From a virus, in the IMG/VR virus record IMGVR_UViG_3300041407_000075, positions 26,163-90,162 of that record: DNA of 64,000 nt. One strand, given 5' to 3'. How positions within the stretch are numbered: the stretch's first letter is position 1; the number at the start of each line of letters is the position of its first letter. A program made the translations under genes and the position numbers. The notes under the pieces are model-generated. The model was not told where the DNA came from. It was given only the letters and a program-made list of their open reading frames with translations, and searched no databases. This document shows, piece after piece, positions 9,773 through 63,933 of the stretch.

Positions 9773-11485
9773 CTATTCCTTAATTGCAATATATGAATTG
9801 ACATCGCGTATGAACATTGCTGAATAATCAAGACCTTCCATCTCAAGTTTAGTTTCTGTCTCCCACCAGTTAACCCATTTATCATCCTCCCCAATAAGGT
9901 CAGTATCAATAATATATTCAAAACCGTCTGTATTACACATTACAATCTGCACATTACAGTGATCAATCAACTTCTCCATGAGCATACATAGCGATAACTG
10001 TCCACCGATAGTAATACTCATTGTATACGCTGGGTCATAAAGTGGGCTAAACTCGTTATTCGTTTCCCCGTACGAACCATTCAAAGCTAGTTTGAGTGCA
10101 GCGTTACCCGCTGAACCTTTTGCTGTCTTTGTGCGCTCGTCATATAGTGAAGCATTAACATCACAGAAAGTCGTACCTAAGTGTTTAGGATAAATCTGAT
10201 TTGAAATCCCCATGTTTGGATAAAAAGATTTTACATCGAGCGAACGAATCTTTCTTTTCTCTGTACTTCTAATTGTACCTTGTTTGGCGCCGTGGATACC
10301 CCCCACACCGTAGTCATATCGAAACCCATTGATTACTACGTTGAGAGTTTCTGCTACGTTCCAACACCAGTAATAGCTCTTTGCTCCTTTAGGGCTCTTA
10401 AGCTCTTTCTCTTCAATCCAACCCATCGGTTGCTCTTTCTTCAGTTCAACAAGTTGCTCTTCTTTTGGGTAGAAGGTTTTACTCCGAGTCCCTTTAAAAT
10501 CATCGAAGTCATACTTTGTACAGTCAGCTTGATTACCAAGTTTCTTTTTCTTCACCACCATTTCAGCATACTTAGCAACATCCCCCAACTGATGTTCCAT
10601 CAAATCACTGAACACACCCTTTGTCTCAGTAATAACCTGATCCTGAAACCATTTATGGACAGCTTGAAATTCAGGTCGGTCAAACTTAATGTAAGGAAAT
10701 AGACAATCTTTAATGATGATCTTATCACGCTTCGTCTGCCGGATCTTTCGACCAAACTTAGTCACTTCATAACAACAACCCGGACTCACCTTCTCAAGCG
10801 TGCGAATAAACAATTCTTTACCAATCTTCGTGTCATTAAAATTGGTACAATCAAATCCGAATTGTTTTGTAAGATCACCCCGCAGTTTAAGATTTTCATA
10901 AGAATACCAGTAAAACTTTAGTGTCTCGCTAACGTCGTGTTTGTTGTATTTCAACAATACATCTTTTTCATGATCATTAAGAATCTTTCCAACAGGGAAC
11001 GGTAAATCCTCAATATTAGGGGATCGCATGTTGTACTCAAGCATTTTTAGGGATGTAGCCCGAGCGTGGTTATCAAAATGGTGGATTTTAAACAAATCAA
11101 CCTGTGGGATAATTACATCCTTTTCCTTAATTGCACTACCAAACTTCTCATCTTTGCTTGAGTTGATCAACTTCATTGCTACATCATAAATTTGTTTTGC
11201 TGTTATCTTAAGTTTTTTATCTGTCCCATGAACAGCACGAGCTTTCTCTAGAATGAAATGAAGAACTGGGTAATCGAAGTTCAGGTTGTTAAATCCAACA
11301 AAACGATGTCCAGCACTCTTTACCTTACGGAAGAAATCAAGAAGGTCTTCTACTTCATTTTTACGATCACTAATTTCAAAGGCTCGCATACCTTTGCCGT
11401 TTGAGTAGACAGCAGCGAACGTAAAGGTATTTGGATAAGTTTCGATATCAAAAATCCAGTCCCCCTCAAAGAATTTCTTTTCCAA
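9773..11485 (-). CDS. family B DNA polymerase, N-terminal and catalytic part
   Basis: 570 aa. The 3'-5' proofreading domain has IFDIETYP (Asp13/Glu15), FVGFNNLNFDYP and YNKHDVSETL. The polymerase palm has motif A SLDVKSFYPNM (Asp ~417), motif B KLALNGSYGE (Lys ~465) and motif C CNTDGFEY (Asp ~520), where the usual first Asp is Asn. I recall the NTDG form from related phage enzymes. Translation stops just after DVNSYIAIKE, where intact relatives continue into GKVKxKGAYE. The rest is encoded at 8773-9267. This is the replicative polymerase of the phage. Confidence 0.92.
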   Translation of the reverse strand: MEKKFFEGDWIFDIETYPNTFTFAAVYSNGKGMRAFEISDRKNEVEDLLDFFRKVKSAGHRFVGFNNLNFDYPVLHFILEKARAVHGTDKKLKITAKQIYDVAMKLINSSKDEKFGSAIKEKDVIIPQVDLFKIHHFDNHARATSLKMLEYNMRSPNIEDLPFPVGKILNDHEKDVLLKYNKHDVSETLKFYWYSYENLKLRGDLTKQFGFDCTNFNDTKIGKELFIRTLEKVSPGCCYEVTKFGRKIRQTKRDKIIIKDCLFPYIKFDRPEFQAVHKWFQDQVITETKGVFSDLMEHQLGDVAKYAEMVVKKKKLGNQADCTKYDFDDFKGTRSKTFYPKEEQLVELKKEQPMGWIEEKELKSPKGAKSYYWCWNVAETLNVVINGFRYDYGVGGIHGAKQGTIRSTEKRKIRSLDVKSFYPNMGISNQIYPKHLGTTFCDVNASLYDERTKTAKGSAGNAALKLALNGSYGETNNEFSPLYDPAYTMSITIGGQLSLCMLMEKLIDHCNVQIVMCNTDGFEYIIDTDLIGEDDKWVNWWETETKLEMEGLDYSAMFIRDVNSYIAIKE

Positions 11486-13345: not shown

Positions 13346-13351
13346 GGATGT

Positions 13352-15523: not shown

Positions 15524-15569
15524 TTTATTTCTCCGTTTTGTTTAGGTTGTGTCTTGCTCGATTGGCCTC

Positions 15570-15718: not shown

Positions 15719-15747
15719 TTGACAGGGGTTGGTGATGGAGGTAAGCT
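15719..15747 (+). promoter_or_regulatory. sigma70-type promoter driving the rightward accessory block
   Basis: TTGACA (15719-15724), 17 nt, TAAGCT (15742-15747), then a strong AGGAGG ribosome site at 15762 for the 15776 gene. The -10 resembles that of the leftward promoter, suggesting both are recognised by host RNA polymerase early in infection. Confidence 0.75.
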
Positions 15748-15775
15748 GTGTGGAAATCAATAGGAGGAAGGCACC

Positions 15776-15970
15776 ATGAACATTAAATTCAGAAGTAACC
15801 ACTTTCAACTGCATGGTAAACACTGGACTGACTTTGATTCTCGTTCCTTTATGGAAACCAACAAAGGCTCTGTACACGAAGCCGTCCAGCACAACATGAA
15901 TTTCTATAAACTAACTGAGAACGGTATGCTTGTACACGTTTATGATGCTTATGAGGCTGATGCCAAATGA
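15776..15970 (+). CDS. hypothetical protein, 64 aa
   Basis: First gene of the rightward block, with a perfect AGGAGG site. The small His/Phe-rich protein (FRSNHFQLHGKHWTDFD) has no known domain. A strong promoter and ribosome site make it likely to be an abundant early product acting on the host. Confidence 0.8.
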   Translation: MNIKFRSNHFQLHGKHWTDFDSRSFMETNKGSVHEAVQHNMNFYKLTENGMLVHVYDAYEADAK

Positions 15971-16149
15971 ATTATGAAGAGTTTAGAGGGTATTGTATAG
16001 GCCTTCTCTGCTGGAAAATGTCTAGGAGTACAGCAGAAAATTTGGTTGACTGGATCTTCCCAGAAGAGTATGCAGAGCTGTATGAGAAGAGGCTAACTGA
16101 TTCTGATGAATTCCTCAATTATGCCACCAAAGTATTAGGAGAATATTAA
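15967..16149 (+). CDS. hypothetical protein, 60 aa
   Basis: Start overlaps the previous stop (ATGA). Helical and acidic at the C-terminus (DWIFPEEYAELYEKRL). No function recognised. Confidence 0.7.
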   Translation: MNYEEFRGYCIGLLCWKMSRSTAENLVDWIFPEEYAELYEKRLTDSDEFLNYATKVLGEY

Positions 16150-16320
16150 ATGGCTAAGGCACTCGCAACATTAACCAGTAACGACCACAAATTTCAGGCA
16201 GGAACCGTGCTTGTATTGGAAGAAAAGACTACAGAAAAAGGCGTTACGTGGTGGTCCTTCCGTTACCCTGATGGTACGCTTGTCCATCTTAAATATCACG
16301 AATTTTCATGGGGAATTTGA
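16150..16320 (+). CDS. hypothetical protein, 56 aa
   Basis: ATG follows the previous stop directly, with GGAG at 16139. The predicted beta-rich sequence (FQAGTVLVLEEKTTEKG, WWSFRYPDGTLVHLKYHEF) suggests a small SH3-like or beta-barrel fold. Another frame is open over part of this stretch but lacks a start site and fits poorly. Confidence 0.65.
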   Translation: MAKALATLTSNDHKFQAGTVLVLEEKTTEKGVTWWSFRYPDGTLVHLKYHEFSWGI

Positions 16321-16324
16321 CAAA

Positions 16325-16396
16325 ATGAAAAAGAAATTCAAAATAATCGACACATCTACGGGACAGAAGATTAAGCTAAAAGAGGGAGAAGAATGA
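16325..16396 (+). CDS. very small basic peptide, 23 aa
   Basis: MKKKFKIIDTSTGQKIKLKE then EGEE, bracketed by genes with the usual overlaps (its stop overlaps the next ATG). It is short, but the spacing and coding frame fit the operon. Confidence 0.45.
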   Translation: MKKKFKIIDTSTGQKIKLKEGEE

Positions 16397-16605
16397 TGAA
16401 CAACAGAATCAGTGTAGATGCCAGTACAGACAAACACTTGGCAACGTACGTATTTTACCTTGATGACGCCAACAAGCTTACAGATGTATACCTGAGTAGC
16501 ATATCGGGAAAAGGCACAAGTGGGTTTGGAGATTTTATTGATGTAAAATATGTCCCAGAAGATGTGATTAAGGAGTTCAACATTAAAGTGGATGCTCTGA
16601 AATGA
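16393..16605 (+). CDS. hypothetical protein, 70 aa
   Basis: Starts ATGATG behind GGGAGAAGA. Small alpha/beta protein (HLATYVFYLDDANKLTDVYL). Unknown function. Overlaps the next gene by ATGA. Confidence 0.7.
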   Translation: MMNNRISVDASTDKHLATYVFYLDDANKLTDVYLSSISGKGTSGFGDFIDVKYVPEDVIKEFNIKVDALK

Positions 16606-16886
16606 ACAATCTTAAAGCTTGGTACGTTACACATTTACACTCAGGAAAGAAATATTCTTCTGTAGTCCTCAGTAAATCACGCTACCTTGCATCTACATAT
16701 GTTGAAGGTGAAGTTCTGAATGTGGATGAGTCTTGGGGTAAACCTATCCGAGAAGGTGGTATCATTAGTAGCAGTGGTTGGGCTATGTATTTCTTTGACA
16801 ACCACACGAAGAAGGATTATGAAGTTAGTGAAGAATGGCGACAGTATTTGATTCGTAGACATTTTGATGATGGGATTGAGGATTAA
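16602..16886 (+). CDS. hypothetical protein, 94 aa
   Basis: Mixed fold with several aromatic residues (WYVTHLHSGKKYSSVVLSKS, SSSGWAMYFFDN). No recognised family. Coupled to the genes on both sides. Confidence 0.7.
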   Translation: MNNLKAWYVTHLHSGKKYSSVVLSKSRYLASTYVEGEVLNVDESWGKPIREGGIISSSGWAMYFFDNHTKKDYEVSEEWRQYLIRRHFDDGIED

Positions 16887-17276
16887 ATGATGATCGAAGC
16901 AATCGTAGAAGTGTGGTGTTCACCTCTTCGCAGGGAAGATTATTCTGTAAAAATAATTCCTCTGTTCGCCGGGGAAATGTTCAACGTAGAGGATGACATT
17001 AGAGACTACATCAAGTGGGATTTCTATCTGAATACCTTTGGTGTTGACTATGCAGAAGTCAAGGGTCTGTGGAAGGTTGTGTTCAAGATTTCTGTATCAT
17101 ATAGCACCTATTATACTTATGCCGGACCAGACGATGACGTAGATATTGGGCAAGAAGTGCTGTTCAAAGGTCAGTGTCAAGAATGGGCTGAGATGAAATA
17201 CACTTGGCTTGAGTTGAATGGGAAGATTGATGAGTATTTTAGTAAGCCTTGGAAGAGGCATGTGATTGGTTTGTAG
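16887..17276 (+). CDS. hypothetical protein, 129 aa
   Basis: Follows the previous stop without a gap. Beta-strand-rich, acidic (VEVWCSPLRREDYSVKIIPL). Unknown. A 182-nt non-coding gap follows before the polymerase-like gene. It holds no clear terminator, only a weak possible -10 (TATAGT near 17,416). Confidence 0.65.
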   Translation: MMIEAIVEVWCSPLRREDYSVKIIPLFAGEMFNVEDDIRDYIKWDFYLNTFGVDYAEVKGLWKVVFKISVSYSTYYTYAGPDDDVDIGQEVLFKGQCQEWAEMKYTWLELNGKIDEYFSKPWKRHVIGL

Positions 17277-17458
17277 GTAAATCTCCTGAAACCACCCAAT
17301 AAACAGTGAATTCAACCTTGTGTTTGGAAGGGTGGATGTGAGATTATGGTTGTCTGGATTTGAGTGCTTATTCAGATTGATCATTTTTTAACCAAAGCGT
17401 TTCCCATATAGTGTTATTGAATAGGAGATGTGTATGTGTGTAGGAGATTAGATGTAAT

Positions 17459-18799
17459 ATGACAAGAATGGAAGAGAAAGTAAGAGATTTAGAAGGAAGA
17501 GAGTTATATTCTGTTCTTATCTCTACAGCTAGAGGTAAGCCCTTTAGATCGCCTAGTGTGGTCTATAACCATTTGGTATCTCTAATAAATAAAGAATTAA
17601 AATACAAGAAGTTTGAAGCTGTAGAATGGTTCTTCACTAACACAGCAAGAGCCTTACGTGATAATTACATGGGTTTCTCTGTAAAGCTACAAGCTGTCTA
17701 TTGGACAGGGAACGATTGTGGGATCAGTATTCGTGCTATCCATTCAGTATTGGATTACATGAAAGAGAATGATTACATTTATGTACTAAAAGGCAGTCAT
17801 GATTACAGAAATGAAGACCTTTCTTACATGAGTGTAGTGAGATTTACTGAAAAACTGGTTGACCTATTCGACAAAAAGGAGCTACTATTGCACATTCCTA
17901 GCGTGTCTATGGATTACCCTATTATTTTGAAAGATAGGAAGACAAAAGAAATGATTGAAGTACAGAAAACAGGCATGGTTGAACAGATGGCAGAGGAAAT
18001 GCAGCGTTACAATCAGAGTTTGTCTGGTGTTGACGTTCGTTTTGATGGGAAATCTATCCCTTTGTTGGAATATAAGCGTAGTTTTAGTGGTGATTTCAAC
18101 AGTGGTGGGAGGTTGTTCGCTCATGGCGGCAGTATTCAGCTTGTCCCACAGGAATTACGTTTAGCTGCTATTACTATTGATGGTGAGTCTGTAGTAGAGT
18201 TAGACTATAGTGCAAATCATCCACGGATTCTGCTAGAATTTCTCTGTCAGCGTGATCAAAGTGTATTGGAGTTTGTAGGAAAGGACGTTGATCCATATGC
18301 AGCAGACAGTTCGTGCCTGAAAGTTGACACTTTGGCGATTGAAGATCATAAATTGCGTTATGGTATTACTAAATATAACCCATCTCGCTCGTTTATGAAA
18401 CATGCAGTCATGCGTGCATTAAATTGTGATAGCTTTGATAAGGCGTTTTCTAGTTTGTCGCATGAATTCTTCACAGATAGTAAGAAGAACATTGCAGATC
18501 GTGACTATGTGGGGTTGATTAAACCTGATTGTCGTCTTGTATTATCTGCAATTTGTGAGCACAACCGACTGATTGCAAATGATTTCTTTCAGGATAAAGG
18601 TATTTGGTTACAAAATCTCGACAGTGAAATTGCTTTACGTGTAATTGATTTGATGCTACAGTCTGGAGAAGTTGTACTCTGCTGGCATGATAGCTTTCAA
18701 TGTCGAGCAAGTGCTAAAGAACTATTGCATTCTGCAATGATCGAAGCTTGGAACGATGTTCTAGGCTCTAATATTTTCGTAAAGGTGGATCAAAAATGA
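17459..18799 (+). CDS. polymerase-palm protein (PolA / single-subunit RNAP-like superfamily)
   Basis: 446 aa. The C-terminal half carries a polymerase palm signature: a GGRLFAHGG...QLVP block (~217-231), motif A VVELDYSANHPRIL (Asp249), a helix RSFMKHAVMRALNC (~310-323) placed like motif B with a Lys, and motif C VVLCWHDSFQC (His410/Asp411). HDSF is the motif C form of T7-like RNA polymerases and HDE that of PolA. The N-terminal ~200 residues are unassigned and there is no proofreading domain. I recall similar palm proteins in phages and plasmids without a settled function. It overlaps a nucleotidyltransferase gene by ATGA, suggesting joint action on RNA or DNA ends. Activity is inferred, not shown. 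Confidence 0.7.
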   Translation: MTRMEEKVRDLEGRELYSVLISTARGKPFRSPSVVYNHLVSLINKELKYKKFEAVEWFFTNTARALRDNYMGFSVKLQAVYWTGNDCGISIRAIHSVLDYMKENDYIYVLKGSHDYRNEDLSYMSVVRFTEKLVDLFDKKELLLHIPSVSMDYPIILKDRKTKEMIEVQKTGMVEQMAEEMQRYNQSLSGVDVRFDGKSIPLLEYKRSFSGDFNSGGRLFAHGGSIQLVPQELRLAAITIDGESVVELDYSANHPRILLEFLCQRDQSVLEFVGKDVDPYAADSSCLKVDTLAIEDHKLRYGITKYNPSRSFMKHAVMRALNCDSFDKAFSSLSHEFFTDSKKNIADRDYVGLIKPDCRLVLSAICEHNRLIANDFFQDKGIWLQNLDSEIALRVIDLMLQSGEVVLCWHDSFQCRASAKELLHSAMIEAWNDVLGSNIFVKVDQK

Positions 18800-19371
18800 C
18801 TATCGAAACTCAGAAACAACTAGCTGACAAAGTGTATGAAGCACTCACTCTCATTGACCCTTCGTGCGTCCTTGCTGGTGGTGCTCCCCGAGATTGGTAT
18901 TTGGGAACAGAGGCTAATGATCTTGATTTCTACTTCTGCTCTACCGGATCAACTGTAGACCGTGTAAAGAAACAACTCAATCGTGTTGGTTTTGAAGTGG
19001 AAGCTTCAGTTTGTCCTGTGCAATCAGAGCTTTATCAATCCATGCCCGGTTTGACACGTATCTGGAATTGTGAATCTGAGACTATGAAGATTCAATTTAT
19101 TCAAATGGCTGAACCTAAATTCAGATGGGGTGTTGTTAATAATATGGATGTCAGTATCTGCAAAGCGTGGTATTCTCAGGTTGGACATATTCATTTGCAT
19201 CAAGACTTTAAACTGACCATTGCAAGTAAAATTATGTTTCTGAAAGAAAGTTATTGCTGGGCTAACAAGCATGGTCAGAAAATGAAAGAACGCTTTGAAG
19301 GTAAGTTTCACGCTGGTACGAAGGATCAAGCTACACGTTCTTTGGTGTCCAAAGTGTTGATGGAGATTTAA
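18796..19371 (+). CDS. nucleotidyltransferase (Pol beta-like, PAP/CCA-adding head domain)
   Basis: 191 aa. The catalytic signature is VLAGGAPRDWYLGTEANDLDFYF: GG for triphosphate binding, RD, then the metal-binding Asp pair of DLD. A third acidic position may be in MDVSICKAW (~120). It lacks the long C-terminal tRNA-binding body of CCA enzymes, so it resembles stand-alone phage nucleotidyltransferases that add nucleotides to RNA, protein or small molecules. Coupled to the palm-polymerase gene. Confidence 0.8.
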   Translation: MTIETQKQLADKVYEALTLIDPSCVLAGGAPRDWYLGTEANDLDFYFCSTGSTVDRVKKQLNRVGFEVEASVCPVQSELYQSMPGLTRIWNCESETMKIQFIQMAEPKFRWGVVNNMDVSICKAWYSQVGHIHLHQDFKLTIASKIMFLKESYCWANKHGQKMKERFEGKFHAGTKDQATRSLVSKVLMEI

Positions 19372-19372
19372 A

Positions 19373-19603
19373 ATGAACTGGATCAGCGTAAAAGATTCAC
19401 TCCCTGCACTAAACGTAGACGGCTCTAAAGTATTTGACAGTATTGATGTAATCGCTACAGATGGTATTCATGTCTGCACTTGTGAGTTTCAGTCTGGATG
19501 GTATTGTCAGGAGCAATGGTTTGCTTGGGGAAATTATAATCAAATCCCTAAGAGCCAGATTACACATTGGCAGTATTTGCCTAAACCACCTGTGGAGGGT
19601 TGA
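19373..19603 (+). CDS. DUF551-like protein, 76 aa
   Basis: The layout WISVKDSLP ... THWQYLPK ... PP is the DUF551 signature common in phages and prophages, function unknown. GGAG lies ahead of the ATG and only 1 nt separates it from the nucleotidyltransferase. Confidence 0.8.
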   Translation: MNWISVKDSLPALNVDGSKVFDSIDVIATDGIHVCTCEFQSGWYCQEQWFAWGNYNQIPKSQITHWQYLPKPPVEG

Positions 19604-19606
19604 CTG

Positions 19607-19762
19607 ATGACTGATTCATACAGTTTTAAACTAAACCCTAACAACTTCACTCAAGTAGGAGAGACAAGATTCTTTGAAATTCAGGCAGATAAAGAATCTG
19701 TTGAGCGGTTTATAAAGGATCTTGAATTGTTTGAAAAGAAGCGTGCTGAGGAGAACGAATAA
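19607..19762 (+). CDS. hypothetical protein, 51 aa
   Basis: Short ORF with a helical C-terminus (VERFIKDLELFEKKRAEENE). Located between two DUF551-like genes in one transcription unit. Confidence 0.6.
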   Translation: MTDSYSFKLNPNNFTQVGETRFFEIQADKESVERFIKDLELFEKKRAEENE

Positions 19763-29416: not shown

Positions 29417-30097
29417 ATGAAACAACTTAAATTTATTCACGGTGTTGGTATCAACGATGCAGACTACCCTGTAACACAAAACAAAGTCGTTGATGGAAAA
29501 CAAGTTCAGATTTGGATTTGTCCGTTTTATGCAAGGTGGCGGGCTATGTTCAAAAGGGCTTATTCCGAAGCTTACCAGTCTCTGTACACCACATATGTGG
29601 GTTGTTCGGTTTGTCCTGAATGGATTTACTTTACTAATTTCAAAAGCTGGATGGAGACACAAGATTGGGAAGGTAAACAACTTGATAAAGATTTGTTGGT
29701 TAAAAGCAACAAGATTTATAGTCCTGAGACTTGCGTGTTTATTGAGCAGAAGATCAACAAATTCATGTCAGAAAAACCTAATAAGGTTCGAGAACTGCCT
29801 ACAGGTGTTTCTTGGGATAAAAAGGCCAGCGCATATAGGGCTCAGTGTATCTCAGTCGAAACGGGCAAACAGACCAATCTAGGATGGTTTGATTCCCCCG
29901 ATACGGCACACAAAGCATGGCTGGCTTTCAAGCTAGAGCAAGCACATGCACTGGCATTCACCCAATCAGATAAGCGTATCGCAAAAGCTTTGATTGAACG
30001 ATACGAAAATTATTCAAAAATAGATGAGATAATTGTTGACCATAGCCCTGAATTAACCTATTATTCACTTACTAAAGAGAATCAACAGAAGGAATAA
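29417..30097 (+). CDS. HNH/AP2-like mobile endonuclease
   Basis: 226 aa. Starts with a T7-type HNH-like block (PFYARWRAMFKRAYSEAYQS, CSVCPEWIYFTNFKSWM, LDKDLLVKSNKIYSPETCVF), followed by an AP2-like domain (TGVSWDKKASAYRAQCI, GWFDSPDTAHKAW). Strong TTGAGGAG site. It sits alone between a terminator and small genes, as expected for a free-standing mobile endonuclease. It shares its layout with the 52505 gene. Confidence 0.85.
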   Translation: MKQLKFIHGVGINDADYPVTQNKVVDGKQVQIWICPFYARWRAMFKRAYSEAYQSLYTTYVGCSVCPEWIYFTNFKSWMETQDWEGKQLDKDLLVKSNKIYSPETCVFIEQKINKFMSEKPNKVRELPTGVSWDKKASAYRAQCISVETGKQTNLGWFDSPDTAHKAWLAFKLEQAHALAFTQSDKRIAKALIERYENYSKIDEIIVDHSPELTYYSLTKENQQKE

Positions 30098-33039: not shown

Positions 33040-34032
33040 TTAGATATTTCTCACACCACCATGTTCTTCAAAGATATGAATCACAGGTTCTAAATTTGAG
33101 GGGAAGGTAGTCTCAGTATACCCATCAGGCATTTCCTCTTTAGTGATTACCTTTGTAGTTAGGTTATTCAGACAATACCTTTCAGCATCTCTACAGTCTT
33201 TAACTGTTGGATAAGTCCAGACACCATAATTTATAACATCATAAATTGATAGCTGGTTCTGACGTTTAATCCTTTCAGTTGATAGATTTGCAATACCAAA
33301 CTTAATAGCAACTACATCTTCTTTATCCATTAGAAGATTAATATAGGTTTCTTGTTGTCTATTACCACTACAAGCACAAGACCTAACACCCTTATACAAA
33401 CCCACTAAATGTCCTTCACCTAATTCACCACAGTCAGGACAATCCATGTACCAGTATTTCTTATGTCCGTGTTTATCAACTCTTTCACTTCTGGTAAATA
33501 CTGTACCATCAGCATAACATCCAGTGTCCATAAACATTTTAATCATTACAGAGTCATCTTTTCTTTTGTAGTCTCCCATCCTCAAAGCAAAGCATCCCGC
33601 ACAACCTTTGTATCCACCTTTGATAAGAAAGAAACTGATTGTCATAGAAAAGAAATCTCCGTGGTCTGGACACTCCGCTACCACTTTAGTTTTGTTGGCT
33701 GTAGTGAAATCACCATGCCAACCTTTAAAGATTAAACCTCTTTCCACACAAGCTCTATTAACCCTTACTACATACTGCTCTTTAGACCAATTGCACTTAT
33801 CTGTACATCCGCATGGAATACAACCTCTGTTTAGATGGCCTTTACTCATTGCAAACAACCCCTCACCAAATAGTTCAGGGTCTTCTTTGCATACAGAGCA
33901 CTCTACAATATACTTCTTATCGTTAGCATACTTACCATTCCAGCCTACAACCGTTAAGTTTCCAAATACTGTTCCTTCAAACCCATCATATTTCATTACC
34001 CCATCTTCAATCAAGTCTTTCAAACTAGCCAT
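33040..34032 (-). CDS. mobile endonuclease-like protein with zinc repeats and GIY-YIG-like C-terminus
   Basis: 330 aa. Start at ATG 34030-34032 (a GTG lies 6 nt upstream). Three Cys-rich modules (CSVCKEDPE...CIPCGC; CPDHGDFF...CAGC; CPDCGELGEG...CACSG) resemble the repeated zinc modules of phage homing proteins. The last ~90 residues (ETYINLL, then AIKFGIANLSTERIKRQNQL) resemble a GIY-YIG-type nuclease. It is inserted between the 34075 gene and the block end, next to a copy of the 26-bp repeat. Confidence 0.7.
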   Translation of the reverse strand: MASLKDLIEDGVMKYDGFEGTVFGNLTVVGWNGKYANDKKYIVECSVCKEDPELFGEGLFAMSKGHLNRGCIPCGCTDKCNWSKEQYVVRVNRACVERGLIFKGWHGDFTTANKTKVVAECPDHGDFFSMTISFFLIKGGYKGCAGCFALRMGDYKRKDDSVMIKMFMDTGCYADGTVFTRSERVDKHGHKKYWYMDCPDCGELGEGHLVGLYKGVRSCACSGNRQQETYINLLMDKEDVVAIKFGIANLSTERIKRQNQLSIYDVINYGVWTYPTVKDCRDAERYCLNNLTTKVITKEEMPDGYTETTFPSNLEPVIHIFEEHGGVRNI

Positions 34033-34050
34033 ACGCACTCAACTTAAATT

Positions 34051-37649: not shown

Positions 37650-37880
37650 TTATTCCTCCAATATAAGTTCTACAATTGCCGTGGCTTCAGATAGTGTGTC
37701 CATGGCAACCCAATCTTCTTTGTCTCCAGCACCCATCTTATAACACATCCACAGATATTCAACCCTGTACAGTGCATCTTTAACACCTGCATTATATTCT
37801 TCTGTGTCCTTGTATGGGCTAGGTTCTTTATCCGTAGAGAATTGCCACAAATCCTTAACTCTCTGCTTTACCTCATCCAT
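37650..37880 (-). CDS. hypothetical protein, 76 aa
   Basis: Helical and acidic (MDEVKQRVKDLWQFSTDKEP). Overlaps the macro-like gene by 13 nt. Unknown. Confidence 0.6.
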   Translation of the reverse strand: MDEVKQRVKDLWQFSTDKEPSPYKDTEEYNAGVKDALYRVEYLWMCYKMGAGDKEDWVAMDTLSEATAIVELILEE

Positions 37881-38266
37881 ACCTTCTCTCCATTAACTAT
37901 ACCAAAATGTTCCCACAGAATACCACACATCATCTCATAAGCAACAGGAGATTTCTCTTTCATCTTAGCCCTTCCTGTTCCAATGCCGTCTTCAGGGAAT
38001 ACAATCACTTTGTCCTGACCAAGCTTCCACAGTTCACGTAGAGATACCTTTACAGCTTCAAGTTCATCTGGTTTGTCACTAAAGAATGCCCAATCATCCC
38101 AAGAGGGATATCGTTTAGTTGGAATACCAAAGGCGTTAGGCTCATCTCTGATGATTGCTTGACCACCTTTGCCGAAGTGCTTTAGGTTATCTCCGTAGAC
38201 CCATATCTTTTCTGGATAACGTCTACACATTGGAGGTGAAAGTATTTTAGCGTATTCAATTATCAT
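37868..38266 (-). CDS. macro-domain-like phage protein (ADP-ribose-related fold, predicted)
   Basis: 132 aa. KIWVYGDNLKHFGKGGQAII, then EPNAFGIPTKRYPS, then VIVFPEDGIGTGRAKMKE follow the layout I associate with a stand-alone phage family of macro-like fold: GDN, a Gly-rich loop and a second Gly loop around the ligand pocket. Related folds bind or hydrolyse ADP-ribose derivatives, so a role in countering NAD-based host defences or reversing ADP-ribosylation is plausible but inferred. It is directly downstream of phaZ with no gap. Confidence 0.6.
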   Translation of the reverse strand: MIIEYAKILSPPMCRRYPEKIWVYGDNLKHFGKGGQAIIRDEPNAFGIPTKRYPSWDDWAFFSDKPDELEAVKVSLRELWKLGQDKVIVFPEDGIGTGRAKMKEKSPVAYEMMCGILWEHFGIVNGEKVWMR

Positions 38267-39106
38267 TTAACCCTCCAAAAACTTAGTAACAATTGGAACA
38301 ACCCCCTCCAAACTCGTAAGAAGGAAGAGATGACCTTCGCCCTCAAACACATACATCTCAGAATTAGGGATTAGCTTCGCTAATATTTTCATATTCCGCA
38401 AGTCTATCAGAGGATCATCATCACCAGCAAGGACTAATGTTGGTTGTTTAATACTGTGCAAATACCACAACGATGACCACCACATCAAAGCTCCTTGCTG
38501 ATAGGCATAACCCAACTGACTGTGTTTAAACTCTCCCTTACTCTGTGACATACGCGAAGCATGCTCAACAGCCAGTTCTTTGTTTCCCCTAAAATGGCCC
38601 CCATAGATATCTGCTGCAATCGAAGCTGCGTAGTTGCTATCTGTATAGCGTTTAGGCGAGGACATCAAACTAAGCACTTTCATACTTGGTGGTATGGCTG
38701 TAACACCGGCACAAGTCGCTGCAAGGATTAGTTTCTTACAACGATTTGGATACCGGTAAGCAAATTCCTGACTGGTGAATCCTCCCCACGATAGTCCTAG
38801 TACAAATACTTGCCCGTAGTTCAAAAAGTCCAGCATTTCTGAGATTGTTCTACACAGGCCACTAAAACGATATGGGAACAGAGGTGTAGAACTGCCAGCA
38901 ACTCCCGGGTAATCGAATGTAATGATTTCTAAGTCTGGTTGTGCAAGGTGCATAGCCTCAACAAAGGGAAATAACAGTTCTAGCGATGCACCTATGCCTG
39001 TACAAAGCAGAAGAGGAACACTGTTCGCTTTTCCCAGCTTAATAGATACACGAAGGGTCTGATTGCCGTTCATTGTTATTGTTCTAGTATTCATTTGAAT
39101 GGCCAT
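38267..39106 (-). CDS. phaZ: PHA depolymerase (alpha/beta hydrolase, PhaZ-like)
   Basis: 279 aa, about the length of Pseudomonas PhaZ (283 aa as I recall). It tracks that protein end to end: GIGASLELLFPFVEAM, FDYPGVAGSSTPLFPYRFSG, the nucleophile elbow GLSWGG (Ser106), RYPNRCKKLILAATCAGV, IYGGHFRGNKELAVEHASR, QPTLVLAGDDDPLI (acid ~229-231) and GEGHLFLLTS (His259). No signal peptide, so it acts in the cytoplasm on stored medium-chain PHA granules, releasing 3-hydroxyalkanoic acids. Phage lipases of other families lack these blocks. It overlaps the upstream gene by 16 nt. Probably host-derived. Confidence 0.9.
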   Translation of the reverse strand: MAIQMNTRTITMNGNQTLRVSIKLGKANSVPLLLCTGIGASLELLFPFVEAMHLAQPDLEIITFDYPGVAGSSTPLFPYRFSGLCRTISEMLDFLNYGQVFVLGLSWGGFTSQEFAYRYPNRCKKLILAATCAGVTAIPPSMKVLSLMSSPKRYTDSNYAASIAADIYGGHFRGNKELAVEHASRMSQSKGEFKHSQLGYAYQQGALMWWSSLWYLHSIKQPTLVLAGDDDPLIDLRNMKILAKLIPNSEMYVFEGEGHLFLLTSLEGVVPIVTKFLEG

Positions 39107-39282
39107 TTATAAACAATCCTCTCTAAGTCAATAATCCTATTATCCAAATATTCAATCATCTGCTGTTGGTCGTAAATACTGCCAACCAAAGATTTAATTA
39201 TATCATCACCATTTCTCTTATCTGTCCATATACATCCATTAGTTGCACATATGTAGTTGTGTATAAACTCTTCTCTAGTCAT
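39091..39282 (-). CDS. hypothetical protein, 63 aa
   Basis: Small mixed protein (EFIHNYICATNGCIWTDKRN, helical end). It overlaps phaZ by 16 nt, so the two are co-translated. Unknown. Confidence 0.65.
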   Translation of the reverse strand: MTREEFIHNYICATNGCIWTDKRNGDDIIKSLVGSIYDQQQMIEYLDNRIIDLERIVYKWPFK

Positions 39283-41201: not shown

Positions 41202-41395
41202 TTTAATTTTCCCTCTAAGTGAGCAAGCTTCTCTTCAAGTACGATAGTGTAACAGAAAAACTCTTCCAATGCCGCATTCAATCTGAAAGATTCCGAATCC
41301 TTATTCTTCTTGTAATCTAAGAATGCCGGAAACCAAGGTTCTTTTCCAAAGTGGTATTCATACTCCCACTTGATTCTCTGTTTTACTAAGTTCAC
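41198..41395 (-). CDS. hypothetical protein, 65 aa
   Basis: Helical, Trp-containing (WEYEYHFGKEPWFPAFLDYK). Overlaps both neighbours by ATGA. Unknown. Confidence 0.65.
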   Translation of the reverse strand: MNLVKQRIKWEYEYHFGKEPWFPAFLDYKKNKDSESFRLNAALEEFFCYTIVLEEKLAHLEGKLK

Positions 41396-41802
41396 TCAAA
41401 TTCCTCAATGATCATCTTCTTACGTTGTACGAATTGATTAAAAATGATTTCTTCCAATTCTGCATTGCCCCAATCAAATTCATCAGGAACATTCAACACA
41501 GAGATAGTTTTGTCGAGACAAGAAATCAAAGTTTTCTCTTCTGCATCCAAATCAAGCACATTATCCGAGTTTACAAACACAATCTCTTCCGCCCAATGAA
41601 TCAAAGCTTCTGTGATTGGAATCAGGGCGAAGTCTTTACAGCTACCACATGCCCGTGTGTTTAGACCGAGACGTTTGTGGATAGTGTTAGCCGCTGTTGG
41701 GCTTCTCAATAATCCAGCACTACACACGAACAAGACTTTCTTTGCCGTCCCTTGGAACTGATTATGTACGTTAGCCAACTGATTACGATTACCCCTGATC
41801 AT
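41392..41802 (-). CDS. low-molecular-weight tyrosine phosphatase-like protein
   Basis: 136 aa. The P-loop is VLFVCSAGLLRSPTAANTI, i.e. C-x5-R-S near residue 27 as in the LMW phosphatase fold. A DEFDWGN-type acidic stretch follows near residue 110. The family removes phosphate from protein tyrosines or small molecules. In a phage it may switch host kinase signalling. The ~20-residue N-terminal extension is unusual. Confidence 0.75.
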   Translation of the reverse strand: MIRGNRNQLANVHNQFQGTAKKVLFVCSAGLLRSPTAANTIHKRLGLNTRACGSCKDFALIPITEALIHWAEEIVFVNSDNVLDLDAEEKTLISCLDKTISVLNVPDEFDWGNAELEEIIFNQFVQRKKMIIEEFE

Positions 41803-41983
41803 TTTCTTTCCCCTTCAACATTTTAATATAATCTAGAACAGCTTGTGTCTCGTCCATAGCGTATTGAATTAATAGATTCTGTTCAATACCAATTGCTTTA
41901 GAAATACGGTTGCATCTGTTATGGCAGCGCTTCAAGTCTGAATGAAGTAGTTCCAGTTGATGTGTCAATTTCTCTTTATTCAA
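41789..41983 (-). CDS. helical protein, 64 aa
   Basis: Coiled-coil-like (QLELLHSDLKRCHNRCNRIS). Overlaps the alarmone hydrolase gene end by 8 nt. Unknown. Confidence 0.6.
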   Translation of the reverse strand: MNKEKLTHQLELLHSDLKRCHNRCNRISKAIGIEQNLLIQYAMDETQAVLDYIKMLKGKENDQG

Positions 41984-42503
41984 TTCCCAACTCCTTCTTA
42001 GCTTTCTCTACAATATCCTTAGCCTGTGCATACAGCGTAGGATCACCTTCAGTCAGCACTTCTAGCAACAACTCCTTCTCTTTAATGTAAACCTTTGCAA
42101 AATTTTTATCGTGCTCAAGAATTGATTTACTGTTTGAGATAAGGTCTGCAAGTTTAATTGTTTTACACTCAGGGGACTGCATAGCTGTGTGGTAGCGGTC
42201 AATCTCCTTACGCTTTGCACGATTACCATCTTCAGGTTTAGATACATCTGTCAACCCTGAGACTAAATCCCCAATGTAATGACCAAACATGCGATCAATT
42301 GTCCACATATCTACTTGTGTATCTTCCACGCAGTCGTGCAGGTATGCCGCTGCAATCATGCCGGGGGTTCCGCCAACACTCTTCACAATAGCAGCCACCT
42401 CGGCTGGGTGAAAGAAATAAGGCTCATTAGTATATTTCCTACGTTGTCCTACAGCTTGATGTGCCCCTACAGAAAAATAATAAGCTAGTTGTTCGATGTC
42501 CAT
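41976..42503 (-). CDS. HD-domain (p)ppGpp hydrolase-like protein (SpoT/MESH1 type)
   Basis: 175 aa, the size of single-domain alarmone hydrolases. Metal and substrate residues of the SpoT hydrolase domain are visible: YFFHPAEVAAIV (first His), YLHDCVEDTQVD (HDxxED), LTDVSKP and LADLISNS (late Asp). There is no synthetase or regulatory domain. It should remove (p)ppGpp, keeping host transcription and metabolism active during infection. The whole HDxxED set is typical of SpoT rather than of dNTP-hydrolysing HD proteins. Confidence 0.8.
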   Translation of the reverse strand: MDIEQLAYYFSVGAHQAVGQRRKYTNEPYFFHPAEVAAIVKSVGGTPGMIAAAYLHDCVEDTQVDMWTIDRMFGHYIGDLVSGLTDVSKPEDGNRAKRKEIDRYHTAMQSPECKTIKLADLISNSKSILEHDKNFAKVYIKEKELLLEVLTEGDPTLYAQAKDIVEKAKKELGIE

Positions 42504-46627: not shown

Positions 46628-47263
46628 TTACTCCTTATTAAAACCATAGTATTTAAGTTCAGCTTCAGAACGTATAAAACATGCTAGTTCAAAATCATCA
46701 TACCTGCCTAATCGAATAGTTTTACCATTTTGATTAATTCGAACTTCCCACTTACCTTTCTCCTTATTCCAGTTTACGCCCGTACGACCAGAAGTGTTTG
46801 TCTTCTTCATCTTTTGATCATAAGCCTGTAAACTCAGGTCAGCCCATTCACAAGTTTCTTTGGAGTAAATTTTAGCTCCATTTATGCGATTGATTGTTTT
46901 ACCTTCTGGCCGCGCACCCATATCTCCAAAGAAGTTTTCAAAAGATCCACCCTTTGTAGTATCCCATCTGTCGCAAATCTCAACATCTCCGTGCCACTCT
47001 GCGTATTCTTCACTTCTTGTCCTTGAACACAACTTTGCCCAAGAAGTGTAGGTTGAAGTTTTATACATTCCGTGACTAATTGGTTTTCTAGGTTGACACC
47101 CACAATGTGTAGTTCTGTTGTGAAGAAGTCTTGGTGAAAGCAATTCTAAATGATTACCGCAATCACACACGCAGTTCCAACTAATGCTTTTACTCTTATG
47201 TTTGGCATCCGACTGACCTACCACCAATAGCAGGCCAAATCTCTGATTAGTTAAATCTCTCAA
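46628..47263 (-). CDS. HNH-AP2 mobile endonuclease with zinc ribbon
   Basis: 211 aa. LTNQRFGLLLVVGQSDAKHK, CVCDCGNHLELL and THCGCQ form the N-terminal ribbon. The HNH core is AEWHGDVEICDRWD...INRINGAKIYSKETCEW. The AP2 domain is RTGVNWNKEKGKWEVRI...LGRYDDFELACFI. It is inserted between clpP and phoH with 3-12 nt gaps, as expected for a homing gene. Confidence 0.9.
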   Translation of the reverse strand: MRDLTNQRFGLLLVVGQSDAKHKSKSISWNCVCDCGNHLELLSPRLLHNRTTHCGCQPRKPISHGMYKTSTYTSWAKLCSRTRSEEYAEWHGDVEICDRWDTTKGGSFENFFGDMGARPEGKTINRINGAKIYSKETCEWADLSLQAYDQKMKKTNTSGRTGVNWNKEKGKWEVRINQNGKTIRLGRYDDFELACFIRSEAELKYYGFNKE

Positions 47264-52504: not shown

Positions 52505-53272
52505 ATGAGAATGACCAAACTAGAGAAAAAGAATATGAAACGTGGGGATATCTACAACACAAAAAATGGCGATTTGGAAATTCGAGTGGTCATCAGTGCT
52601 AATGAGGTTGTGGTCAGGTTTGTAGATACAGACTATTTTACAATTACCACTAAATCTAATATTTGCAGCGGTAAGATTAAAGATCTGATGAAACCAAGTG
52701 TTTTTGGTATTGGTTTTATGGGTGCAGGTAAATATAATATAAATAATGCACCGACAGCCTACCAAAAGTGGACATCCATGCTTCAGAGGTGCTATCGGGA
52801 GAATTCCATTAGCTGGGAACGGTATGGAGGTAATGGGGTTACTGTTGCGGAAGAGTGGCATAACTTCCAAAACTTTGCAGAGTGGTACGAGAGTTACAAA
52901 TATAAGGAGGATGGGTGGCACCTAGATAAAGACATCCTCATAAAAGGTAATAAACTGTATTGCAAAGAATCCTGCTGTATTGTACCTAGAATTATAAACC
53001 AATCTCTCGTCTCTAGAGTTGGACTGAGGGGTGAGTATGCAATTGGAGTTACGTGGGATGAAAAAGCTAGCAGATACTCTGTAATGCTAAATGCTCACCA
53101 TACACACTACAAAGCATTTCGACAGATGTACAGGAGCGAGCGTGAAGCATTTATGGAGTACAAAGCCGCAAAAGAAAGTTATCTTGTTGCATTAGCATAT
53201 GAATGGAGGGGGCGTGTAGCCCCTAAAGTATTGAAAGCCTTAGTAGAGTATGAAGTTGAATGGAACGATTAA
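52505..53272 (+). CDS. HNH/AP2-like mobile endonuclease
   Basis: 255 aa. The N-terminal ~75 residues are beta-rich. The core resembles the 29417 gene: AYQKWTSMLQRCYRENSISW, HNFQNFAEWYESY, LDKDILIKGNKLYCKESCCI. The AP2-like domain is IGVTWDEKASRYSVMLNAHH, FRQMYRSEREAFMEYKAAKE. The start after TTTTTAGGAG follows the initiator stop by 7 nt. Likely inserted into this replication module. Confidence 0.85.
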   Translation: MRMTKLEKKNMKRGDIYNTKNGDLEIRVVISANEVVVRFVDTDYFTITTKSNICSGKIKDLMKPSVFGIGFMGAGKYNINNAPTAYQKWTSMLQRCYRENSISWERYGGNGVTVAEEWHNFQNFAEWYESYKYKEDGWHLDKDILIKGNKLYCKESCCIVPRIINQSLVSRVGLRGEYAIGVTWDEKASRYSVMLNAHHTHYKAFRQMYRSEREAFMEYKAAKESYLVALAYEWRGRVAPKVLKALVEYEVEWND

Positions 53273-59519: not shown

Positions 59520-61028
59520 ATGATAGAAGAACAGGAAATTATTGGGCCTAGTAGCGCTAAACAATCCCTAATGTTGAATCAGCAAGCTGATACGGCTATT
59601 CTAGGGGGCGCTATGGGCTCAGGAAAATCATTTATTTCATTGCTTTATCCATTGAAATTTGCTGATGATCCTCACCTTCGTGGAATTATCTTCCGTAAGA
59701 CTACTGGTGAAATCACCGCTCAAGGCGGTCTTTGGGAGAATGCTTGTGAAATCTATTCTAAAGTTTATGGTAATGCTGAAGAACTAAGAAAACAAGGTAA
59801 GAAAGGTGGTATTAAGATTCATATTAAAGATCTTAAAATTACCTTTCCTTCTGGTGGTTCTATTAAGTTCTCCTACCTAGAAAACTCCCGAGATTTGCTC
59901 CGTCACCAAGGGGCAGCCTACACTTTTGTGTTATTTGACGAAGCCACGCACTTCACTCAAGAAATGATTGAGTATCTTATTAAGCGTATGCGATCGGCTC
60001 GTGCAAAACACAAAAAACAAATGGTTCTAACTTGCAACCCAGATCCAGACTGGTTCGGTCTTGAGTGGATTAAGCCATACCTAACAGAAGACGGCACACC
60101 TAATACCGATAATGACGGAAAGATGCGTTATTATGCTGTAGATAATGGTGACTATGTTTGGTCAGATAGTCGTGAAGAATTAGAAGCTATTTACGGTGAA
60201 GGAACAGATTCCGGTATTCGTAGTTTCACCTTTGTGAGCGCGAATTGCATGGACAATATTCCCCTTATGACCGCCGACCCAAGTTATCTCTCGAACTTGA
60301 AAGCGCAGAGCGCCGTAGATGTGCAGAGATATCTTTACGGGAACTGGTTTTGCCGCCCAAGCAATTCGACCATGATACGCCGGGAATGGTTCATCGAGAA
60401 AGATGAAGAGCCGCCTTGGACAGAGATAGTTAAAACAGTTAGGGCATACGACTTTGCTTTTGTTTTACGCTCAGATAAGAACAGCAGCCCCGATTACACT
60501 GTATCAGTTAAGATGAGTAAACTTAAAGACGGTAATTACTTTATTCATGACATCCGGAGAACTCGTATTCTTCCCGGCGATTGGATGAAGTTTATTTTAG
60601 ACGCAGCTTTAGCTGACGGACCTAAAGTAGAAATTGTATTACCTCTTGATCCTCAAACTCGCTACAGCAATACATTCATATCTAAAGACCTATCCTCTAA
60701 AGGTTTTCATGTACGTCAGTTCAAAACTACGGGCCACAAAGAGGATCGCTTTAAACCATTCACATCTATTGTTATGAATGGTGGAATGCAGATTCTCAAG
60801 GATTGCGGTGCTGACTATGAAAACGGAGTTTATGATGATCTTAACTTCTTCTATAAAGAGTTAGAGTCTTATGAAGGTGGTAAAAGATCCTCTGGCAGTC
60901 GCCACGATGATCTTTGTGATGCTTGCAGCGATTCATTTGCAGCTGTTGCGTCAAGTAAAACAATACCAAACTTCCTAGCTGGTTTAAAAGGTGCAAACCT
61001 TTCATATAATAACCCCTTCAATCAATAG
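59520..61028 (+). CDS. terL: large terminase subunit (ATPase-nuclease)
   Basis: 502 aa. Walker A GGAMGSGKSF (~29-38), a REGTT-like IIFRKTTGEI, Walker B YTFVLFDEATHF (~140) and coupling region MVLTCNPDPDWFG. The C-terminal RNase H-like nuclease has VRAYDFAFVL and late HDDLCDACSDSF acids. It cuts concatemeric DNA and drives it into proheads. Standard gene order with portal and protease behind it. Confidence 0.95.
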   Translation: MIEEQEIIGPSSAKQSLMLNQQADTAILGGAMGSGKSFISLLYPLKFADDPHLRGIIFRKTTGEITAQGGLWENACEIYSKVYGNAEELRKQGKKGGIKIHIKDLKITFPSGGSIKFSYLENSRDLLRHQGAAYTFVLFDEATHFTQEMIEYLIKRMRSARAKHKKQMVLTCNPDPDWFGLEWIKPYLTEDGTPNTDNDGKMRYYAVDNGDYVWSDSREELEAIYGEGTDSGIRSFTFVSANCMDNIPLMTADPSYLSNLKAQSAVDVQRYLYGNWFCRPSNSTMIRREWFIEKDEEPPWTEIVKTVRAYDFAFVLRSDKNSSPDYTVSVKMSKLKDGNYFIHDIRRTRILPGDWMKFILDAALADGPKVEIVLPLDPQTRYSNTFISKDLSSKGFHVRQFKTTGHKEDRFKPFTSIVMNGGMQILKDCGADYENGVYDDLNFFYKELESYEGGKRSSGSRHDDLCDACSDSFAAVASSKTIPNFLAGLKGANLSYNNPFNQ

Positions 61029-61036: not shown

Positions 61037-62560
61037 ATGGCTGATGAAGAAGATGTCTCCTTAGATGTCGGGAACTTGCAAGCCGGTACTAATAATATTC
61101 CACCACTTGCTCTTGGTGAACAAGGTTTTGCTGGCCTAAATATTTTGGGCGGCAGGGTATTCGAAGAATGCAACCACGAGCTCCGCTGGCCTGAGTGTAT
61201 TCAGACTTATAAGCGAATGGCTAAAGATGGTGCAATTGCCCCCGCTCTCGACCTAGTTGAAATGATGATAGCCCGCGTACCTTGGACTGTCAAGGTTCCT
61301 GAAGGCTACGAAGAAAAACTTAAATTCCAAGCTAACTATCTGCGTCAAGTGAAAGATGACATGGACCACTCTTGGGACTCTGCAATCAAGCAAATCGTAA
61401 GCTTCAATCGCTACGGTTTTGCCTGTGTAGAAAAGGTTTATGGTTACAGGGAAAAGGCTAAAGGTAGTAAGTATGATGACGGTTTGGTTCGTGTTAAAAA
61501 ACTAGCCCTTCGTCCACAAGACACTATTGAAAGCTGGGTATATAAGAACAAAGGCCGTGATCTTGCTGGTTTAAATCAGTGTGTTGTGCTTCCAACTAAC
61601 TCTACTATTAACGGTAGGGATTTTGTAAACAATCCCGGTCTTGTGGATTCAGGTTGGAACACAGCAACTAAGTTCCTTAAACGAGCTAAGTTCATGCTGT
61701 TCCGCCAAGGCTCTTTGAAAGACTCTCCTGAAGGTACAAGTCCGCTGAATGGTGCTTGGCAAGCTTGGAAGTATAAACAAGCTTATCAAGAGTCGGAAGC
61801 TATTGCTGTAGCACAAGATAGTAATGGATTTAAAGTGCTTTATCTCCCTCCTCAGTACATGGCAGCTGATGCCTCTGAAGAGGACAAAGCAGTATTTGAA
61901 GAATACAAAAAGATCTTGGCTAACATGCACCAAGCTAAGCAGTCAGGCATGATCCTCCCACTTATCCTAGATGAATCTGGGAATAAGATGTTTGAATTTG
62001 ATATCAAAAGTATCACAGGTCAAAAGTCGTATGACACTAATGCAATCATTGGCCGATATACTTCTGAGATTCTAACTGCACTGTTTGCTGACTTCCTTGC
62101 ACTTGGTTCTAATGGTTCTGGTTCGTTTAGTCTTGCTGAAACTAAAGTTAGCATCATTGAGATGACACTTGAGTCCAAGTTGAATGAGATTAAAGATCAG
62201 TTGAACAACGACTTGGTTCGCCAATTGTGGGAACTAAATGCGTGGGATACTGATGTAATGCCTTACTTCGACTACGGTAATATCTCTCGCGAATCGCTGG
62301 ATGAAATCGGTAAGTTCGTGCAACGAGTTGCAGCAGTTGCGATGCTTCCTAAGTCTCCAAAAGTTGTTAACTGGCTGATGAAGCAAGCGGATATTCCTTA
62401 CCATGTTGATGAGTCCTTGAGTCCAGAGGAACTTTCTGAACAGCTGACACCAATGACAAGTGGAGCCGCCCAAGGCATGACTGAAGGTCTTCCATCGGGA
62501 ACTGGTAACAATTCTGGTAGCTCAGGTGACTCTTCCACATCTAACACAGAAAATACTTAG
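61037..62560 (+). CDS. portal protein
   Basis: 507 aa. Typical portal pattern: EECNHELRWPECIQTYKRMA, then IVSFNRYGFACVEKVYGYRE, LALRPQDTIESWVYKN, then a helical stem and crown with SLAETKVSIIEMTL. Located between terL and the head protease, as usual. The C-terminal Ser/Gly-rich tail is probably disordered. Confidence 0.9.
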   Translation: MADEEDVSLDVGNLQAGTNNIPPLALGEQGFAGLNILGGRVFEECNHELRWPECIQTYKRMAKDGAIAPALDLVEMMIARVPWTVKVPEGYEEKLKFQANYLRQVKDDMDHSWDSAIKQIVSFNRYGFACVEKVYGYREKAKGSKYDDGLVRVKKLALRPQDTIESWVYKNKGRDLAGLNQCVVLPTNSTINGRDFVNNPGLVDSGWNTATKFLKRAKFMLFRQGSLKDSPEGTSPLNGAWQAWKYKQAYQESEAIAVAQDSNGFKVLYLPPQYMAADASEEDKAVFEEYKKILANMHQAKQSGMILPLILDESGNKMFEFDIKSITGQKSYDTNAIIGRYTSEILTALFADFLALGSNGSGSFSLAETKVSIIEMTLESKLNEIKDQLNNDLVRQLWELNAWDTDVMPYFDYGNISRESLDEIGKFVQRVAAVAMLPKSPKVVNWLMKQADIPYHVDESLSPEELSEQLTPMTSGAAQGMTEGLPSGTGNNSGSSGDSSTSNTENT

Positions 62561-62568: not shown

Positions 62569-63933
62569 ATGGCCCACAGTCTTCTCAGACTGAAAGAAAA
62601 GATTTGCAATACTCCTCACTTGATGCACCCAGCATCGTTTGAAATTGTTATTCAATATCTTAACGAACGAAACAACGAAGACTTCAAACTGGATACAGCA
62701 GTTGAGGATACTCGTGAAAGTAATTCCCGATACTCTTTTAACAAAGATATCGGGGTTGCTGTTCTCAACATTGATGGCCCTCTCAGCTATAAGCCTGTAA
62801 CAATTATGGGCTTTGATTGTGGTGGTGCATCCTACCAGCAGATTAAAGAAGACTTTACCTACCTTGTTGATAGTGGTGCAAAGACTATTGCATTCAGTGT
62901 TTCCAGTGGTGGTGGTGAAGCTTTCCAGATGATGCCAACTGCTAATTACATGCGTAAATTGGCTACTGAAAACGACGTTCGTATCATCACCTATGTAGAT
63001 GGTCTGTCCGCTTCAGCAGCCTATGGTTTGTCTGTAATTGCCGATGAACTGATCATGGCCCCAAGCTCAGAAGTTGGTAGCGTTGGTGTTCTGGTTCGTT
63101 TGATGAATGACTCCAAAGCACTTGAGAAAGAAGGCTATGAACGTACCTTTATCTCTGCTGGCGATGACAAGATTCCATTTGACGCTGACGGTAGTTTCCG
63201 TAAAGAGTTCTTGGAAGATATTCAAGGTAAAGTTGACACACTTTACGAAGAGTTTACTGGGTTCGTTGCAGAACATCGCAACTTGTCAGTAGAAGCAGTG
63301 AAGTCCACACAGGCGCGTACCTTCTTGCCAAAAGAAGCTATTGAGCTTGGACTAGCTGACCGTGTTATGACTCTTGAAGAGTTTTACACACATTTGGCTG
63401 ATACAGCTCAAAAACAAGAAGGTGGTATGTTAAAAACCAAACTGTTTGCCCAATTTAATAAAACCGAGGAAACTCTAGAAATGACTCAACTTGCCGAACT
63501 GCAAGAACAACTTCAGGGCGCTCAATTGAGTGTTTCTGACCTTACCTCTAAATTCGAAGCTGCTTCTTTGCTGCTTGCTGAAAAAGATACCCTTCTGGCT
63601 ACCGCTCTCCAAGAAGTTGCACAGATGAAAGAAGCTGTAGCCTCTGCTGAAGCTGCTGCTGTAGCCGTAAAAATGACCAGTCGCAAGACTGCTCTTGCCG
63701 CTGTAATGTCCGCTGACAAAGTTGAAGCTGTTTCGACCTCCTTGTCCAGCCTTGACGACTCGGCATTTGAAACTGTTCTGAGTGGTTTTGCTGCACAGAA
63801 ACAAGCTCTTGAAGCATCCGATATGTTTACAGAACTTGGCGACCAAGGTACAGAAGTAGTTCCTGAAGCTAATGCTTCTAAGTCTAAAGATGTTACCGAA
63901 GACCTTATCAAACAAAAACTAGGTTTGAAATAA
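62569..63933 (+). CDS. head maturation protease (S49/SppA-like) fused to scaffold
   Basis: 454 aa. Residues ~45-280 are the S49 fold: FSVSSGGGEAFQMMPTANYM and the catalytic loop YVDGLSASAAYGLSVIADEL with Ser/Lys partners. Residues ~300-454 form a scaffold-like helix region (LAELQEQLQGAQLSVSDLTS, then Ala/Glu-rich). An internal ATG at 63481 with GAGGA ten bases ahead could express the scaffold alone, as in lambda C/Nu3. Confidence 0.88.
   Translation: MAHSLLRLKEKICNTPHLMHPASFEIVIQYLNERNNEDFKLDTAVEDTRESNSRYSFNKDIGVAVLNIDGPLSYKPVTIMGFDCGGASYQQIKEDFTYLVDSGAKTIAFSVSSGGGEAFQMMPTANYMRKLATENDVRIITYVDGLSASAAYGLSVIADELIMAPSSEVGSVGVLVRLMNDSKALEKEGYERTFISAGDDKIPFDADGSFRKEFLEDIQGKVDTLYEEFTGFVAEHRNLSVEAVKSTQARTFLPKEAIELGLADRVMTLEEFYTHLADTAQKQEGGMLKTKLFAQFNKTEETLEMTQLAELQEQLQGAQLSVSDLTSKFEAASLLLAEKDTLLATALQEVAQMKEAVASAEAAAVAVKMTSRKTALAAVMSADKVEAVSTSLSSLDDSAFETVLSGFAAQKQALEASDMFTELGDQGTEVVPEANASKSKDVTEDLIKQKLGLK

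Follow-up and report, generated by a model that had tools for sequence, protein, structure and literature searches.

PHA is the main carbon store in many Pseudomonas. The intracellular depolymerisation of its medium-chain-length (mcl) form has been attributed so far to this genus only, and the corresponding enzyme of P. putida, PhaZ, relies on a triad made of Ser102, Asp221 and His248 with a lid extending from residue 133 to 192 (PMC12504323). On the viral side, phage-borne auxiliary metabolic genes (AMGs) for PHA synthesis (phaC, phbB, acs and others) were reported from PHA-producing mixed cultures (PMC12013262). Among the papers naming both polyhydroxybutyrate and viral AMGs, none except this one was relevant, and its text mentions neither phaZ nor a depolymerase. 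No phage phaZ was found in full-text literature searches, a scope outside which most subscription papers and preprints fall; within the same full-text literature, no description was found of the apparently virus-specific PhaZ branch reported below. The gene presented here resembles the published AMGs in being a phage gene that would act on the PHA cycle of the host; it differs from them in being devoted to degradation, in phages without phaC, instead of synthesis. Mycobacteriophages also carry alpha/beta-hydrolases, the esterase/lipase genes of phrog_789, but these share only ~24% identity with the present protein, at weak E-values, and form a separate family.

The window, that is the whole stretch of 64,000 nucleotides that was analysed, corresponds to bases 26163-90162 of a virus record of 90,162 bp. 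The phaZ-like gene is located at 38267..39106 on the minus strand and encodes a 279-aa member of the intracellular mcl-PHA depolymerase family. The preliminary description had given this reading frame without its strand; the frame is real and begins with an ATG, and the plus strand of the same stretch is full of stops. Its GC content is 43%, for 40% in the window. The same record encodes a terminase large subunit (59520..61028, plus strand; phrog_979, 3.7e-146), a portal protein (61037..62560, plus strand; phrog_113) and a head maturation protease (62569..63933, plus strand; phrog_53), which confirms the location of the gene in a phage. The best cultured relative of the terminase is that of phiPMW, a phage of P. 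putida PpG1, with 42% identity; the identity to phiPMW reaches 46% for the portal and 56% for the DNA polymerase (9773..11485, minus strand). These proteins support the assignment of the window to a phiPMW-like Pseudomonas phage, the host being very probably a Pseudomonas. phiPMW is the closest cultured relative, but it is devoid of phaZ. The gene had been proposed to betray the host genus, and the best bacterial matches listed, all Pseudomonas PhaZ, agree with this relatedness to phiPMW. Scores over the TIGR02240 cut-off are rare outside Pseudomonas: they were obtained for 22 of the 343 genomes scanned in the order and for 2 of 369 in the class, counts in which Pseudomonas itself is comprised.

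TIGR02240, 'poly(3-hydroxyalkanoate) depolymerase', is a curated NCBIfam equivalog with a cut-off of 250.6 bits. The window protein, which also matches Abhydrolase_1, exceeds this cut-off with 313.3 bits (E 1.4e-93), and the next-best family reaches 80 bits, far below its own cut-off. Unrelated alpha/beta hydrolases are thus not the best profile matches. The model was matched by all 18 members of set A2, 17 of them viral, and its cut-off was passed by each of the ten viral copies scored against it. The likeness to PhaZ over the whole length, announced from the letters alone, holds as well, with 51-55% identity to Pseudomonas PhaZ, the closest bacterial matches listed from a collection of 84,980 species genomes; viral copies reach 91%. 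All the motifs quoted initially were found, namely PGVAGSSTPLFPYRFSG (67-83), GLSWGG (104-109), IYGGHFRG (167-174), GDDDPLI (228-234) and GHLFL (258-262). In the alignments, the nucleophile S106 of GLSWGG (codon 38789..38791, minus strand) corresponds to Ser102 of P. putida PhaZ, D231 (38414..38416, minus strand) to Asp221 and H259 (38330..38332, minus strand) to His248. This triad is invariant in the bacterial rows and in all viral copies whose sequence extends over it, and Tyr190, Gln193 and the GIG loop are also conserved throughout. At the level of sequence, the membership of the PhaZ family and the catalytic triad can be considered as established.

The comparison with PhaZ of P. putida KT2440 reveals, besides the full-length homology, a common Ser-Asp-His triad, a GxSWGG elbow, a GIG loop and a lid inserted between strands. 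The window gene differs in being phage-borne, in lying outside a phaC1-phaZ-phaC2 operon and in belonging to a deep separate branch. At the protein level, T36 (codon 38999..39001, minus strand) occupies in the alignments the place of Asn-35, the lid hinge reads YAYQQG instead of YYWQLF, and ~six residues are inserted in the lid region, directly ahead of this hinge. The threonine is restricted to a three-member viral subclade made of the window protein, L002 and L056, and Asn-35 is present in all other aligned full-length PhaZ, viral or bacterial. According to the account of de Eugenio 2008 given in PMC12504323, Asn-35 is essential and its mutation abolished the activity of P. putida PhaZ. A single change in the lid hinge, S184F, shifts the same enzyme from depolymerase to esterase (PMC12504323). 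The altered hinge and the insertion therefore indicate that the substrate range of the window protein may differ. These features speak against a depolymerase and for a substrate-shifted descendant of PhaZ, a general esterase or lipase directed at host lipids, signalling esters or small esters in place of granules. We regard this reading as unlikely, though it is the most probable of the alternatives: the TIGR02240 score is far above the cut-off and above all other families, the triad, Y190, Q193 and GIG loop are retained throughout, and outside the three-member subclade the viral lineages have Asn-35 and resemble ordinary PhaZ.

A structure prediction had also been proposed as a check. The AlphaFold2 model is confident (pLDDT 87.8, pTM 0.89) and predicts a lidded alpha/beta-hydrolase in which helices 142-207, forming the lid, are inserted between strands 123-129 and 223-228. 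A fold search with this model returned many esterases and lipases together with the PhaZ of B. thuringiensis, all at similar scores, so that the substrate cannot be told from the structure; taken alone, this search ranks esterases and lipases first, which speaks for an esterase.

On these grounds, the reading that we favor, with a probability of roughly 0.7, is that the window belongs to a tailed Pseudomonas phage equipped, as an AMG, with a mcl-PHA depolymerase of the PhaZ type, and that this phage would mobilise the granules of its host during infection. The depolymerase would be produced at an early stage of infection, its gene being translated together with other small genes of the same block, and would bind the PHA granules of the host, where Ser106, His259 and Asp231, under the lid, would cleave the polyester and free 3-hydroxy fatty acids. 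Host enzymes would then activate these acids and beta-oxidise them to acetyl-CoA and reducing power, both of which would feed phage replication in carbon-limited, PHA-rich cells. With a phaZ copy of its own, the phage would no longer depend on the way in which the host controls phaZ expression and the cycling between synthesis and degradation. If this is true, the breakdown of storage polymers joins the known viral metabolic takeovers.

The neighborhood of the gene was considered with respect to this scheme. In the window phage, phaZ is part of a minus-strand block of small genes, away from the structural and lysis genes. Its stop codon abuts the start of a gene encoding a DUF7831 protein (37868..38266, minus strand; PF25176, phrog_2072) in the arrangement TAAATG. 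The latter gene has a good Shine-Dalgarno sequence of its own, GGAGGG, and is probably co-translated with phaZ, judging from this arrangement; the same adjacency is present in L002. On the upstream side, a 63-aa ORF (39091..39282, minus strand) overlaps the start of phaZ by 16 nt. Further upstream, 2.9 kb from phaZ and in the same gene block, a small RelA/SpoT-type HD hydrolase resembling MESH1 is encoded at 41976..42503 (minus strand; PF13328, with PDB matches to RelA/SpoT hydrolases and MESH1). It contains the motifs HDCVEDT and KLAD; L002 also has a homologue, as do the records of L037, L038 and L044. This protein is a possible phage alarmone hydrolase; if it does degrade alarmones, the phage would dampen the starvation response in addition to mobilising the reserve. 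A constant partnership was rejected: HD_4, the alarmone hydrolase family, occurs in just 5 of 31 phaZ-bearing viral records, so that the pairing with phaZ is a lead only. A role of phaZ in a defence system was likewise rejected, as PADLOC gave no match. Two other minus-strand ORFs of the window can be mentioned. The product of 41392-41802 has an N-terminus (VLFVCSAGLLRSP) that reads like that of a low-molecular-weight phosphatase, with no match in Pfam or the PDB, and that of 33040-34038 contains CapR homology domains (PF21817, two stretches).

The preliminary description presented phaZ as a possible new phage gene. Its absence from well-described phages stands, since no homologue above ~30% identity was found among 50,697 cultured or deposited phage records. 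The gene is not isolated, however: relatives of the window PhaZ were detected on 53 and 62 IMG/VR contigs in two alignment-based scans, which amounts to ~60 related viral copies overall. L058, L060, L061 and the partial L242 fall outside the viral clade or are unplaced. L058 (IMGVR_UViG_2974641675_000001, 279,845 bp), which is derived from an isolate, has a PhaZ that groups with those of Burkholderiaceae and showed no terminase with two models; it may not be viral.

The viral copies, together with one gene from a megaplasmid of P. silesiensis, form a single clade with supports of 95/95 (94/88 in another tree). In trees with a wider gammaproteobacterial sampling, the sister group of this clade comprises the whole of the chromosomal Pseudomonas PhaZ. 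Some viral lineages had branched outside the others, with weak support, in a smaller tree containing fewer outgroups, but no longer did so once the sampling was improved. A recent capture from a Pseudomonas host is rejected by the tree and by the AU test, the position of the window protein and L002 inside chromosomal Pseudomonas PhaZ having a p value of 4.7e-5. Strict virus-only monophyly is weakly rejected too (p 0.038), because the P. silesiensis copy falls inside the viral clade. This orphan phaZ (L003 4989-5882, NZ_CP143488.1) is carried by a megaplasmid from a plastics landfill, and its position in the tree is read as a possible phage-to-plasmid transfer.

The same data bear on the least probable of the explanations, according to which phaZ is passive cargo that does nothing for the phage, either a gene acquired from a host by accident or a bacterial fragment binned in error. 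Phages do contain many hitchhiking genes in general, and the presence of phaZ is patchy among close relatives. This explanation is nevertheless opposed by purifying selection, with a dN/dS of 0.116 between the window and L002 and of 0.04-0.15 across the other pairs, that is ~0.1 across a deep divergence. It is also opposed by the topology, since the viral copies constitute one clade and not scattered recent captures, and their nesting in host PhaZ is rejected. The GC content of the gene has ameliorated to that of each phage (r 0.95 over 62 loci), whereas Pseudomonas phaZ averages 64%. Finally, phage genes flank phaZ in independent contigs, and in one jumbo phage described below it has cleanly replaced a single gene. 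The probability left to a passive cargo is very small. Contaminating bacterial DNA and a pha operon carried along as a hitchhiker are both rejected by the surrounding phage genes, by the GC tracking and by the lack of phaC, which was present in none of 32 viral records and in both Pseudomonas controls. The viral location, the purifying selection, the virus-specific clade and the absence of phaC are thus established from sequence comparisons, and phaZ, which is located among phage genes (in synteny in L002), has a homologue in host metabolism and is maintained by selection, qualifies on this basis as a candidate AMG.

The phages bearing phaZ are diverse, with sizes ranging from ~40 kb to jumbo. 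The lineage of the window itself comprises contigs of ~81-104 kb with 40% GC and, where tested, a phrog_979 terminase. L024 and L053 resemble siphophages and contain genes for a terminase, a portal, the head and a tape measure. The L018 and L038 contigs, pooled, display tail sheath, baseplate, integrase and RecE/RecT genes and correspond to integrase-bearing myophages. Jumbo-size contigs cover 228-307 kb, one of which, L012, encodes DNA polymerase and RNA polymerase beta proteins. Further phaZ-bearing contigs yielded genes for lambda-type replication or for nicotinamide phosphoribosyltransferase, in scans pooled over loci and not resolved per contig. Phages of P. putida and P. aeruginosa are among the best cultured relatives of the L024 and L018 contigs, and such Pseudomonas-phage relatives agree with the attribution of mcl-PHA depolymerisation to Pseudomonas only (PMC12504323).

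This diversity is relevant to another alternative, in which granules are attacked for a gain other than energy. The benefit would be a clearing or remodelling of granules that provides space, alters the association between phasin and nucleoid or releases surface-active 3-hydroxy acids aiding lysis; in integrase-bearing relatives, it would be an altered storage metabolism of the lysogen. The integrase of some phaZ lineages speaks for this alternative, as does the size range, from ~40 kb to jumbo, which makes a need linked to one life style unlikely. However, no linkage of phaZ to phasin or lysis genes was seen, and the neighbours of phaZ in the window phage are small accessory genes. We consider this alternative improbable, somewhat more so than an esterase. 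To return to the depolymerase feeding phage replication, a broader proposal can be made: a virus-specific PhaZ clade would have passed between unrelated phages of Pseudomonas, as different as siphophages, integrase-bearing myophages, jumbo phages and phiPMW-like phages, as a dedicated means of burning host polyester, and the mobilisation of storage granules would be a strategy general to viruses of environmental Pseudomonas. The chances of this generalisation are about even. The existence of a viral depolymerase clade makes the use of host storage polymers by phages in starved cells testable in P. putida KT2440. It would also be relevant to PHA production, where phages could cause product loss, and would provide ~60 diverse natural variants of an enzyme that is of interest for bioplastic recycling.

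The distribution of the gene at a finer scale was approached with the window terminase. Only one of the seven contigs >80 kb found in this way has phaZ, and this patchy presence suggests that any benefit is conditional. The terminase of L255 is 98% identical to that of the window, yet this contig is without phaZ. As a source of an empty phaZ site by DNA comparison, L255 was ruled out, its early region being too diverged, and this strong divergence shows just that phaZ occupies a variable stretch. In these phages, phaZ is an accessory gene. A cleaner situation is provided by the jumbo phage L012, which is related to Noxifer, a phage of P. fluorescens SBW25, with 79% identity over a 962-aa virion protein and 64-84% per protein. 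Noxifer is its closest cultured relative but has no phaZ. The region 9652-11669 of L012 is syntenic with gp082-gp080 of Noxifer (L179), and phaZ, located between the homologues of gp082 and gp080, replaces the small gene gp081 exactly, in a single-gene swap. On another jumbo-size contig, L015 (228 kb), phaZ is directly adjoined by nine tandem ORFs of ~307-349 aa (10898-19650, minus strand), possibly virion structural paralogues. In the window itself, the ORFs 1767-2477, 29417-30097, 46628-47263 and 52505-53272 match the same ORFs of related phages and therefore look like one family; one of them has a weak AP2 match, and they are probably genes of the homing-endonuclease type.
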